DNA of 64,000 nucleotides from Acidimicrobiia bacterium (GTDB lineage Bacteria; Actinomycetota; Acidimicrobiia; Spongiisociales; ZC4RG35): positions 372,001 through 436,000 of the forward strand of contig JANQOU010000006.1 of NCBI GenBank assembly GCA_028285585.1, given 5' to 3'. Shown one piece after another: positions 18,149-46,023 of this stretch. The stretch's first letter is position 1. Every line of letters begins with the position of its first letter. The notes under the pieces were generated by a model. That model was not told the origin of the DNA. It was given only the letters and a program-made list of their open reading frames with translations, and made no database searches. The position numbers and the translations under genes were made by a program.

Positions 18149-19081
18149 ATGGAAGCAGTAGTAGTGCTATTCGCGATTCTCGCTCTGGCACTGATATTGA
18201 TCGCGGCTGCCGGCTTCAAGGTGGTGCGGCCCTATCAGAAGGGTCTCATCGAGTTCCTTGGCCGGTACGAGAACACGGTTGACTCCGGTCTGCGTTGGGT
18301 CATGCCCTTCGTGAAGCGAATCACCAAGGTGGACATGCGTGAGCAGGTCGTCGACGTGCCGCCACAGGACGTGATCACCAAAGACAACGTCGTCGTGACG
18401 GTGGACGCGGTGATCTATCACGAGGCCACCGACCCGGTGAAGCTGCAATACAACGTGGGCAACTTCATCCTCGCCGTGACCAAGCTGGCGCAGACCAACT
18501 TGAGGAACGTCGTGGGTGACCTGGATCTCGACTCGGCGTTGACATCTCGCGAGGTGATCAACACCAAGCTCCGCCAGATCCTCGACGATGCCACAGACAA
18601 GTGGGGTGTCCGCGTGGTCCGCGTGGAGATCCAACGGATCGAGCCGCCGGTTGACGTAACCGACGCCATGCATCGCCAGATGAAGGCCGAGCGTGATCGT
18701 CGTGCGGCCGTGACTGAAGCGGAAGGTGACAAGAGAGCCGCCATCCTCAAGGCCGAGGGAGTCAAGGAATCCCAGGTGCTCGAGGCCGACGGTCGCGCCG
18801 AGGCGATCAAGCGTGTCGCCGACGCCGAGAAGTACCAGAAGCTCACTGTCGCGGAAGGTGAAGGACAGGCTATCGAGCGGGTCTTCGCCGCGATCCACAA
18901 CGGCGACCCAACACCGGACCTGATAGCCATTCGCTATCTGGAGACGTTGCAAGGCGTCGCCGACGGCCAGGCGACGAAGATCTTCCTGCCGCTGGACACC
19001 TCCGGCGTGCTGGGATCGGTTGCCGCCATCGGAGAGATGTTCAACGAGGCTCAGAACGGCTCAGAGCCGTCGAGCAACTAG
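18149..19081 (+). CDS. SPFH/Band 7 (stomatin/prohibitin-like) protein
   Basis: [33 protein letters not shown]..., [30 protein letters not shown]; downstream of NfeD-like gene. Confidence 0.92.
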
Positions 19082-19123: not shown

Positions 19124-19156
19124 TGCATTGAGACACCCCCGCAACCCGCAACCCGC

Positions 19157-19949
19157 AACCTCAGGTAATACCGACCGTATGCGGGCCCCATAGCCTCATC
19201 TACACCGAGCCTCGGCTGGGGCATTGGTGCCGGCTGGTGCCGGCTGAAGCTGCAACCCCTACTCGATCAGCCGCCGACGCGGTTCATGCTCAACAGCACC
19301 TGCTCGACATCCTGCGGGCTCCAGGGCGGGTAGAACACCATGGTGTAGAGGTCGCAACGCTCACCGGGCTGCTCGAACCATCCAGCAACCCAAGTGCCGT
19401 CCGGATGAGGACCCACGGCGGCCCGTGTCCCATCGATCTCGACCTCTCCCTTCTCCCCCGGCCAGTCCACGGCAGGGAGGGTTCCGCGAATCAGCGCAAT
19501 CGCAACGGTGCCGTCGCTACGTCCGATGAACGTCGTCCGGCTCCCCCCGACCGAAGTCCACACGTCGGGCTCCAGGTCCGACGGGTCGAATCCGGCCTGA
19601 TTGACGTTCACCGGGAGAAAACCGATCTCGTAAGGTGCTGCCGGACACTCGTCAACAGCCGCAGGGCGAGTGGTCGAGGTCGACGCCATCGGCGCGCTGG
19701 TCGTCGTTGACGGGGTCGTGGTCGTCCCGACGGATACCGCCGAGCAGCCGACAGCTACGAGCAACATCACTCCGGCCAGTTTCCACATGCCGGCGATGAT
19801 ATGGAGAGGGCAGGAGTTTCCCAGGAACCCTCGGTCACGTCGCAGCCCGAGGCTCGGTGTAGATGAGGCCATAGCGCCCGTGCCCTGGAAAGGGCACGGA
19901 GTTTCTGGCAGAAACTCCAACCTGATTTCATCAGGCATTACCTGAGGTT
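19157..19949. repeat. Dispersed repeat element copy 2 (gene-bearing): terminal inverted repeats AACCTCAGGTAAT / ATTACCTGAGGTT
   Basis: Left end 19157-19169, right end 19937-19949; inner perfect 23-bp inverted repeat 19193-19215 / 19847-19869; shares about 55 nt of exact right-end sequence with 29139-29301. Confidence 0.75.
19267..19788 (-). CDS. Lipoprotein of unknown function, located inside the repeat element
   Basis: MWKLAGVMLLVAVGCSAVSVGTTTTPSTTTSAP lipobox plus Thr-rich linker; longer ORF start in track (19938) runs into the repeat. Confidence 0.65.
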   Translation of the reverse strand: MWKLAGVMLLVAVGCSAVSVGTTTTPSTTTSAPMASTSTTRPAAVDECPAAPYEIGFLPVNVNQAGFDPSDLEPDVWTSVGGSRTTFIGRSDGTVAIALIRGTLPAVDWPGEKGEVEIDGTRAAVGPHPDGTWVAGWFEQPGERCDLYTMVFYPPWSPQDVEQVLLSMNRVGG

Positions 19950-19962
19950 CGCAGTTGGGGGG

Positions 19963-21528
19963 TCAGCGGAGGGCGTGGAGGAATCCGTCTCGGGAGCCGA
20001 TGTAGATGTTGCCGTTGAGGATGGCCGGTGTGGCCTCGATGCAAGACCCGCTGATCGGCACGGTCCAAGCCGACACCGGCTCTCTCGGATCGGAGAGTGA
20101 GTAGCCACGGACCTCTCCCAGGCATGTCGCAACCACCAGGATGTCATCGACGACTGCTGGCGATGACCAGGAATGCCAGCCAACGAAGTCAGACCAGACG
20201 ACATCCCCGGTGGCCGCGTCAACCGCGATCAGGTCGCCGAGGTGAGTGCTCACATAGAGCATCCCGTCATGGAGCGCAGGCGTAGCCCACAGTCCGGAGT
20301 CGGAGTTGCCACTGGTCAAGTCGATGCCCCAAACCCGCGGGTCGCCTGATGCATAGGGGTCGAACTTCACCAGTTGACCGACTTCCAGGTTGCGCTCCAG
20401 TTCCACAGCTCTCATCTGCGCCGGCTCGTGCTCGATTGCCACATAGATGTACCCATCCTGATCGACGATGGGAGTGGCATCGATGTCGCCACCGGCGTAG
20501 TAGTCGAAGACGATGGGAGCGAGGCCACTGCGGATGTCGGAGACATCGACACCGACGACGCGACCCCCAGAGTTGGTGAAGTAGATCCTCTCCTCGAATG
20601 CGACAACGGACGACTCGATCGACACGTTGCGCCCGGACTTGGCAAGAAGTTCGTTGTCGTAGCCCGGCATGGCCAGAAGCTGCACTGGGTCGACTGTGAC
20701 CATGCCCTCTGAGTCGACCCCACGGTTCAGGGCGTAGGCGAAGAACCAGCCGTTCTCACCGCCGACATACATGATGTCGTCGATGATCGAGGGGTTTCCA
20801 TCCCAATCGTTGTTCCAGATGCCGTTCACTTCGTTGGCGTGCAGTGACCACAACTCGACCGGCTCATTGCGGTCGAGAGCAAGTATCCGAAGGCGGTTGT
20901 CGCGCGATCCGAAGTAGAGGAGCGGATATCCGTCCGGATCAAGAGTGACACTTCCCTTGATCAAGTCACCAGTAACGAACCGCGATCGCAACGCTTGACC
21001 GGTCTCCCCGTTCACGAAGTGGACCGCACGGTCGTAGGCCCCAAAGATGACCTCGGTCACGCCATCGTCTCGGACATACGCAACCGGCTGGCCGGTCCAC
21101 CCCATGCCGCACCAGACTCGGGTCTCACCCGAAACCGTCGAGTTGCTGCACATCGGAGACTCCGGGTAGCTCCACCGAACCGACGGAGACACCGCTATCG
21201 GGCCAGACCCGTACCAAGAGCGTGTCGGATTGCCTCGAAACATCGACATCGACTCTTCACGACCCCACGGCTGAGAAACGGTCCAGCCGGGAATCACTCC
21301 CGGCTGGCGGGTCAGCACCGTGGTTGTGGTGGTGGAGGGCGCGGCGACTGTCGTCGAGGGATCCAATGTCGATGTCGTATCGCCAACGGTTGTCGTGGAA
21401 ACACTGGCCTGGGTCACATTGGTCGAGGGTGGCCCGCCATCCCAAAGGTTGAGCAGCACGAACGCGGCGGCTCCCAAGACCGTCCCCACCGTGAGCACGG
21501 TGATGATCGGCCAGGCGCTCCTGCTCAC
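19963..21528 (-). CDS. PQQ-like beta-propeller repeat exported protein
   Basis: Repeated LYFGSRDNRLRILALD, IYVAIEHEP, LYVSTHLGDLIAVDAATGDVVWSDFVG; GTG start overlaps capA-like stop (GTGA). Confidence 0.78.
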   Translation of the reverse strand: MSRSAWPIITVLTVGTVLGAAAFVLLNLWDGGPPSTNVTQASVSTTTVGDTTSTLDPSTTVAAPSTTTTTVLTRQPGVIPGWTVSQPWGREESMSMFRGNPTRSWYGSGPIAVSPSVRWSYPESPMCSNSTVSGETRVWCGMGWTGQPVAYVRDDGVTEVIFGAYDRAVHFVNGETGQALRSRFVTGDLIKGSVTLDPDGYPLLYFGSRDNRLRILALDRNEPVELWSLHANEVNGIWNNDWDGNPSIIDDIMYVGGENGWFFAYALNRGVDSEGMVTVDPVQLLAMPGYDNELLAKSGRNVSIESSVVAFEERIYFTNSGGRVVGVDVSDIRSGLAPIVFDYYAGGDIDATPIVDQDGYIYVAIEHEPAQMRAVELERNLEVGQLVKFDPYASGDPRVWGIDLTSGNSDSGLWATPALHDGMLYVSTHLGDLIAVDAATGDVVWSDFVGWHSWSSPAVVDDILVVATCLGEVRGYSLSDPREPVSAWTVPISGSCIEATPAILNGNIYIGSRDGFLHALR

Positions 21529-29138: not shown

Positions 29139-29301
29139 AACCTCAGGTAATACCGCCCGTATCTGGTCGCTATGGCCTCAGGTTGAAACGCGGCGAGCCA
29201 ACTGGAGGTCATAGGGCCCGCATTTGGGCCGGTGCCCTGAAAGGGCATTGGAGTTTCTGGCAGAAACTCCAACCTGATTTCATCAGGCATTACCTGAGGT
29301 T
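29139..29301. repeat. Dispersed repeat element copy 1 (compact, 163 bp)
   Basis: AACCTCAGGTAAT (29139-29151) ... ATTACCTGAGGTT (29289-29301); inner stem 29170-29185/29199-29214; hairpins GGAGTTTCTggcAGAAACTCC and CCTGAtttcaTCAGG; shared with 19157-19949. Confidence 0.8.
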
Positions 29302-44968: not shown

Positions 44969-45013
44969 TGCGTGTGCAGAAAGGAGTACTGCGTACTCCT
45001 TTCTGCACACGCA
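44969..45013. repeat. Palindrome copy A flanking DUF559 gene
   Basis: TGCGTGTGCAGAAAGGAGTAC-tgc-GTACTCCTTTCTGCACACGCA, 21-bp perfect arms. Confidence 0.9.
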
Positions 45014-45055: not shown

Positions 45056-45976
45056 ATGAACCTCGACGCAAAGCTGGCCGGTCTCTCGTCGCGCCAGAAC
45101 AGGGCCTTTAGCCGACAGCAGGCGCTGGCAACCGGCTTCAGTCGCCAGCAAATCGAACATCGGCTGGAGTCAGGAGTTTGGACGCAGCTAGACACCCAGA
45201 GCTATGCGATCGCCGGAGCCCCAGCTACCTGGGAGCGACAACTCCGGGCCGCAATCCTGAGCCGGCCGACCGCCTACGCCGCGGGCCGAAGTGCAGCTGT
45301 ACTTCACGAGTTCCCCTTCTACAGCCGGTCCAAACCGGAGATAGTTGTCCCATTTCCGGGCAACGCCCGATCGCCAATCGCGAAGGTCATCCGCAACCGA
45401 TACTTCGAAACCGTGGAGAAGGTTCATGTCAAAGGCTTCCCGGCGACCTCGGTGGCAGAGACAATTTACACGCTGAGTCAGCGTGAGCCGAGACAGATGA
45501 TCGAACGACTCATAGACGATCAACTAGCGAGCCGAAGCCTGAAGATCGAGGACTTCGACGTCATCCTCGACCGCCTGGCAGATGCGAGAGTGCGCGGATT
45601 ACCGGCTCTGAGACGTGCCATCGCTGCTCGCGACAAGGATGGCTACCAGCCTCCCACATCGGAGCTGGAGCGACTCCTCTATCGACTTCTCGACTCGCCT
45701 GAACTGCCCACAGTGAGCCATCAAGTCCCTTTGAGGTTGCCAACAACGGCAGCGAGAGTCGATGCCTTCATCAACGACTGGGGCCTGATCATCGAGGCGG
45801 ACGGCCGTCGATGGCACACGAGGGAGCAAGACTTTGAACGGGACCGAGAAAGAGACAACGCGGCCACGGAAGCGGGACTCGCCATCATTCGCTTCACTTA
45901 CTCGATGTTGAAGCGTGAACCGGCCAAATGCCTAGACACGGTGCTCAAGGCCGGCACCTGGCGCCGATCTGCGTGA
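45056..45976 (+). CDS. AbiEi-like N-terminal domain plus DUF559 (Vsr-like endonuclease fold) protein
   Basis: N-terminal LSSRQNRAFSRQQALATGFSRQQIEHRLESGVWTQLDTQSYAIAGAPATWERQLRAAIL; C-terminal RVDAFINDWGLIIEADGRRWHTREQDFERDRERDNAATEAGLAIIRFTYSMLKREP. Confidence 0.82.
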   Translation: MNLDAKLAGLSSRQNRAFSRQQALATGFSRQQIEHRLESGVWTQLDTQSYAIAGAPATWERQLRAAILSRPTAYAAGRSAAVLHEFPFYSRSKPEIVVPFPGNARSPIAKVIRNRYFETVEKVHVKGFPATSVAETIYTLSQREPRQMIERLIDDQLASRSLKIEDFDVILDRLADARVRGLPALRRAIAARDKDGYQPPTSELERLLYRLLDSPELPTVSHQVPLRLPTTAARVDAFINDWGLIIEADGRRWHTREQDFERDRERDNAATEAGLAIIRFTYSMLKREPAKCLDTVLKAGTWRRSA

Positions 45977-45980
45977 GCTT

Positions 45981-46019
45981 GTGTGCAGAAAGGAGTACTG
46001 AGTACTCCTTTCTGCACAC
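45981..46019. repeat. Palindrome copy B flanking DUF559 gene
   Basis: GTGTGCAGAAAGGAGTACT-g-AGTACTCCTTTCTGCACAC, 19-bp perfect arms; 41-nt core differs from copy A by one base. Confidence 0.9.
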
Positions 46020-46023
46020 GCTT

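Follow-up and report, generated by a model that had tools for sequence, protein, structure and literature searches.

The feature at positions 19157-19949 of the 64,000-nucleotide stretch analyzed here (the window) probably consists of two REP-like palindromic units that lie 3′ of convergent SPFH and PQQ genes and enclose a resident gene for a lipoprotein; the repeats would belong to the family of an AbiEi_4-DUF559 endonuclease. Table 1 lists the positions of the features in the source genome (G000).

Table 1. Features of the repeat family and neighboring genes (positions without a contig number refer to the window)
Position	Strand	Feature	Remark
G000:C4:372001-436000		Stretch studied (window)	Acidimicrobiia genome of 2.59 Mb (~2.6 Mb), 14 contigs, 97% complete
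C4:391157-391949		Inward pair around lipoprotein gene	Same locus as window 19157-19949
C11:67796-69069		Inward pair around gene for 376-aa secreted protein	
18164-19081	+	SPFH-domain protein gene	Conserved left neighbor
19145-19156	+	Element-typical C-rich outer flank, CCCCC..NACCNGC	Alignment of ~60 copies
19157-19202	+	Left half-unit, simple type	3′ of SPFH gene; orthologous half in G011/G029
19193-19215	+	Left inner arm	Complementary to 19847-19869 without mismatch; CCTCATCTAC common to G011/G029 left half
19267-19788	-	Conserved resident lipoprotein gene	Synteny in relatives
19847-19869	-	Right inner arm	Apparently copy of left arm
19847-19949	-	Right half-unit, type A, three additional triloop hairpins	3′ of PQQ-like gene
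19963-21528	-	PQQ-binding-like protein gene	Conserved right neighbor
29139-29301	+	Compact type-A doublet, 163 bp	Convergent genes on both sides; same ends as in DUF559-bearing copy
44970-45010	+	Left palindromic inverted repeat, second DUF559 element	41-nt perfect stem
45056-45976	+	AbiEi_4-DUF559 (Vsr-like endonuclease) gene	Encodes putative enzyme of second palindrome family
45981-46021	-	Right palindromic inverted repeat, second DUF559 element	41-nt perfect stem

The initial annotation had proposed a dispersed, MITE-like family of inverted repeats; a MITE- or REP-like family was borne out: the 13-mer AACCTCAGGTAAT occurs in 58 exact copies in the genome compared with none for the reversed control, and the genome-wide search for the ends that had been called for yielded 65 matches (35 + 30) with at most one mismatch. 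Five matches with up to two mismatches were found in the window against 0.46 expected, and folding of the compact copy as single-stranded DNA gave z = -7.5. The presence of the element is patchy, as it is absent or single-copy in most relatives, most of the genomes compared being fragmentary MAGs. In a scan of the phylum a 14-mer was confined to the source's own family with the exception of two lone single matches, and an exact-pattern scan of GTDB returned, beyond the genome itself, only one named genome (JANQRA010000019.1, Acidimicrobiia MAG IP29b_bin.45). This genome of another genus (G012) carries a lone doublet of the G000 type at C23:72690-72797, and its DUF559 genes bear other ends; the doublet looks like a horizontal or trans acquisition. 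No Rfam family matched in the window, and viral contigs contained no match to the element.

The unit of the family is a half of ~47 nt, AACCTCAGGTAATANCGCCCGTATNTGGGCNCTATGGCCTCAGGTT, that forms an imperfect palindrome in the ~60 aligned copies, with a stem register of i+j=47 and an invariant C-C mismatch. Its pairs are mostly invariant, and no signal of helix covariation was found within the half. Upstream of the half lies NACCNGC, plus a run of 4-6 C where it is located outside coding sequence. Two types of ends were observed: one is the simple half, and the other, ‘type A’, has three additional triloop hairpins. The halves are arranged as inverted doublets around a spacer of ~16 nt, as singlets (about 14) or on either side of a gene. 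The compact inverted doublets number 21, with 17 simple (mostly 108 bp, 16-nt spacer) and 4 type A copies (163-164 bp), and three inward pairs enclose a gene (the C4 and C11 pairs of Table 1 and C13:162162-163256). For the compact type-A copy of the window the position given earlier was right; its loop, described as 13 nt, is restated here as a 15-nt spacer between GTT and AAC, most other doublets having 16. Left and right halves differ beyond chance at positions 21, 22, 25, 26 and 29 (141 matches against 174.7 expected), thus the doublets are heterodimers. Minimal 23-nt versions of the element are present at C13:39-61 and C14:24-46, both at contig ends beside similar genes and within a perfect C/G-ended hairpin of ~50 nt; these hairpins may represent a repeat-broken end of the assembly. 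In G011 (C69) a half together with 25 nt is tandemly duplicated, compared with a single half in G029 (C168).

The C13 inward pair encodes a 328-aa AbiEi_4 + DUF559 protein (PF13338 2e-9, PF04480 1.6e-8) and combines a simple half with a type-A end, as found in the 163-bp compact copies and in the lipoprotein copy. Independently, in G011 (C85) an inward pair of 1,035 bp with genus-specific ends encodes a homologue that is 57% identical to the C13 protein. Two DUF559 fragments in G027 abut halves of that genome's version, and another DUF559 element of G027 exists in two copies with 96% identity over 326 bp. The second DUF559 element of the window carries a palindrome of its own, with about 12 dispersed and usually intergenic copies in the genome. 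The third DUF559 gene of the genome (G000:C4:265700-270000) has a 53-nt flanking inverted repeat. The DUF559 columns E205, D236, E247, D249, H254 and D263 are invariant, and profile searches matched PDB 3hrl at 5.4e-7 and, at 1.9e-4, 3r3p, a mobile-intron protein of the EDxHD homing endonuclease type (I-Bth0305I). With respect to a trans-acting enzyme, which the initial annotation had envisaged as a recombinase or transposase, the DUF559 nuclease is a plausible candidate; a Y1/RAYT transposase was not found in the genome.

The association of palindromes with DUF559 genes was quantified by scoring inverted repeats within 250 nt of each gene, with other ORFs in the same loci as controls. A score of at least 16 was reached by 35/43 DUF559 genes compared with 1/175 control ORFs, and a score of at least 18 by 31/43 compared with 0/175; the eight of 43 genes without a strong flanking repeat include some that are cut by contig ends. 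Within G000 only 2/101 genes scored at least 18, namely the DUF559 gene of the window and the C11 gene between halves. The palindrome motif also co-varies with the lineage of the DUF559 protein: motif classes (CCTnAGG, CCCnGGG, TTCTGTG, GTGnGCAG and other), assigned before any tree by pattern with four corrections by eye, change 12 times on the protein tree, the mean of shuffled assignments being 27.2 and none of 200 shuffles being as low. Members of the GTGnGCAG class come from four genera and lie on one side of a branch.

The 3′ end of a neighboring gene, as assigned from the gene calls of a codon-usage script, is faced by 43 of the 63 assignable halves, mostly within 20 nt of the stop codon, and in many neighbor genes the stop codon is immediately followed by the C-rich outer flank. 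This location, the strong hairpins and the occupation of the same positions in two genera would all be in line with bidirectional terminators or 3′-UTR stabilizers under host selection, the DUF559 association being secondary. We regard this explanation as rather unlikely: halves are also found between divergent genes (C6:29403, C4:493189), a T-tract is lacking, sequence and not structure alone is conserved, and most relatives have no copy or a single one. Moreover, the palindromes flanking DUF559 genes and the motif–protein co-variation would be left unexplained. That G000 and G011/G029 carry halves at matching positions suggests vertical inheritance over a long time, an observation that a terminator-like function could account for as well. 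Pre-existing C-rich terminators were considered as an insertion target and rejected, since a stop codon followed by CCCC without the element was found in only 1/172 nearby genes; the exact pattern TGACCCCCC..GGGGGGTCA was not found. By inspection, no target-site duplication was evident in the flanks of the aligned copies, and no insertion event was observed.

PADLOC and Pfam both return AbiEi matches for the DUF559 proteins, as would be expected if these were defense or toxin–antitoxin genes and the flanking palindromes their operators or terminators. However, no gene for AbiEii, the nucleotidyltransferase toxin of type IV (AbiE) systems, adjoins the DUF559 genes inspected (C13 copy and window), and palindromes occur on both sides of the genes and dispersed beside unrelated ones, so that we consider such a role improbable.

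The reading that we prefer is a REP/REPIN-like system whose palindromes would be spread or homogenized by a nuclease of the homing type instead of a tyrosine transposase. The C13 copy would then be the complete element, composed of a half, the nuclease gene and a type-A end. The compact copies of 163 bp resemble internal-deletion derivatives of this element, and the 108-bp doublets would be REPIN-like derivatives. The N-terminal winged-helix (AbiEi-like) part may recognize the palindrome, and the C-terminal Vsr/EDxHD-like nuclease may nick the palindrome or its hairpin, probably when single-stranded during replication. PD-(D/E)XK nucleases hydrolyze DNA and do not join it unaided, therefore host repair would be needed; repair or strand switching could copy the palindrome to new sites or convert old copies. 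Such events would result in spread, in replacement of a genome's copies by a local variant and in inner arms that match perfectly, as the 23-bp pair does, and sites behind stop codons could be over-represented either by target preference or as the only ones that are tolerated. Catalysis by DUF559, movement of the palindromes and the order of these steps are what we infer from the sequence comparisons. Genus-specific versions of the repeat at shared positions suggest that copies have been replaced or converted over time. The single G000-type doublet of G012, whose DUF559 genes have other ends, counts against this scheme.

Mechanistically, the closest parallel is provided by REPINs (PMC3116915) and by dimers of REPs located near 3′ ends (PMC3733652). 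In common with the REP/REPIN-RAYT systems (REPtron) of Proteobacteria, the family comprises short intergenic palindromes that occur as singlets and as inverted, heterodimeric doublets with variable spacer within ~20 bp of the 3′ ends of convergent or unidirectional genes; in both, the repeat flanks the enzyme gene and the motif tracks the enzyme lineage. In contrast, the enzyme found here is an AbiEi_4-DUF559 (Vsr/EDxHD-like) nuclease and not a Y1 HUH transposase, and the halves of ~47 nt carry no GTAG tag; by its enzyme and the missing tag the family falls outside the REPIN/RAYT group. Classical REPINs with a RAYT, a Y1 tyrosine transposase, as their mobilizer would account for palindromic halves, inverted heterodimers, spacer and location 3′ of genes (compare PMC3116915, PMC3733652), but are highly improbable in this case: PF01797 had no match in the 97% complete genome although control genomes were positive, neither a GTAG nor a CGTC tag was present in the aligned copies and the gene between the ends is DUF559. 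CGTC-tagged REPs, reported to be without a dedicated transposase (PMC3733652), likewise form REP-like dimers and differ by the tag.

The nuclease domain is related to that of EDxHD homing endonucleases (3r3p), with conserved acidic/His columns, and this relation points to a spread in the manner of homing or gene conversion. Unlike homing endonuclease genes, the DUF559 genes are free-standing and not situated in an intron or intein, their products are fused to an AbiEi-like winged helix and dispersed palindromes flank them. As in MITEs and IS elements, the ends are inverted repeats and compact derivatives accompany a longer coding element (the C13 copy), whereas no target-site duplication was seen, no known transposase family is involved and the ends themselves are hairpins. 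The GTTRRRY core of integron cassette attC sites is, by eye, absent from the element ends.

At the lipoprotein locus the coordinates of the inverted outer ends (19157-19169 and 19937-19949), of the perfect 23-bp inner inverted repeat with 631 nt between its arms and of the lipoprotein gene, which lies on the minus strand, proved correct in the initial annotation; the inner repeat can be extended to 34 nt at 91%. Its proposal that the gene is cargo carried in the apical loop was not supported at this locus. A homologue of the lipoprotein is encoded in 24/34 genomes of the family, and the gene is flanked by SPFH (+) and PQQ (-) genes also in G001, G031, G017, G012, G013 and G027, where no AACCTCAGG half was found beside it in the loci fetched; in G001 short spacers surround it. 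Conservation of the gene in relatives without the repeat, which the annotation itself had named as contrary to its proposal, is thus observed at this locus. As the lipoprotein gene lies between the same neighbors in these repeat-free relatives, it is, judged by synteny, older than the repeat, and the halves would have been added on either side later. A cargo-carrying cassette or MITE that captured the gene is therefore hardly tenable, in spite of the complete ends and the perfect 23-bp stem around it, as gene and neighborhood occur without the repeat in several genera.

G011 and G029, which belong to another genus, have halves of their own version at the same two positions, plus an extra gene between them. 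The left half looks orthologous in G000, G011 and G029, because its inner CCTCATCTAC is common to all three. The right inner arm matches only the left arm of G000 itself, so the perfect 23-bp inner repeat probably arose later, when the left inner arm was copied within the locus onto the right one. At its 3′ end the PQQ gene has a half in G011/G029 and none in G031, of the genus of G011, which gives an occupied/empty pair. Behind the SPFH gene, unrelated palindromes are present instead in G031 and G001 (GCTGATACGCCCCGTATACGGGCGTATCAGC; TTCTGTGTCGATTTACCCGG...), suggesting that this intergenic spot is a recurrent landing site. In G027 genes for a peroxiredoxin and a CoA-binding protein (L093 2167-2716, L162 1527-2056) lie between inward halves with short gaps.

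DUF559 genes with flanking palindromes were also found in other taxa. In a sample of Actinomycetota and one Tsukamurella plasmid record 13/30 DUF559 genes were flanked compared with 1/69 controls; the palindrome of Tsukamurella tyrosinosolvens is present in three records of its genome, one of its copies being 8 bp away from each of two convergent stop codons. For Alphaproteobacteria, Deinococcus, cyanobacteria and Neisseria, 10/15 DUF559 genes scored at least 16 compared with 0/30 shifted controls (maximum 12.5). The repeat that flanks DUF559 in S. meliloti occurs at 26 places in one record and at 508 in 161 records, and shares GGGGAGAGGG(T/C)TAGGGTGAGGGG with the palindrome of the E. coli ycjD-fabI region (K-12, L292 5040-5408). 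This palindrome, presumably boxC, first noted near envM/fabI, is found in 5,395/5,426 E. coli genomes at a median of 19 places. It is likewise GC-rich and adjoins a DUF559 gene, ycjD, whereas YcjD has no AbiEi-like part and its gene does not have a repeat on each side (score 9). DUF559 had no homologue at 1e-5 in a phage collection and a single plasmid record contained DUF559 genes of the type studied here, which makes movement between genomes appear rare.

DUF559 proteins have so far been listed as ‘very short patch repair’-like or as AbiEi antitoxins, with no role assigned, and REP-like palindromes are among the commonest bacterial repeats. To our knowledge, an enzyme (RAYT) is known for the GTAG group of REPs only; 14 papers of the open-access literature mention DUF559, and no report linking it to transposition or inverted repeats was found there. 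We lean slightly towards the view that DUF559 (COG2852/PF04480) proteins are the mobilizing or homogenizing enzymes of widespread palindromes (the Acidimicrobiia families, the rhizobial GGGGAGAGGG repeats, those of cyanobacteria and Deinococcus, possibly boxC of E. coli and further orphan REPs), which would make up a class of mobile DNA that depends on a PD-(D/E)XK nuclease of the homing type. If this is true, several families of orphan repeats and a gene family that is very common would find a joint explanation, and a DUF559 enzyme could account for many repeats without a known mobilizer. A further occupied/empty comparison is given by Sphingomonas, where a DUF559 gene is located between sufB and sufC, and Azospirillum, whose sufB-sufC span is ~455 nt shorter.
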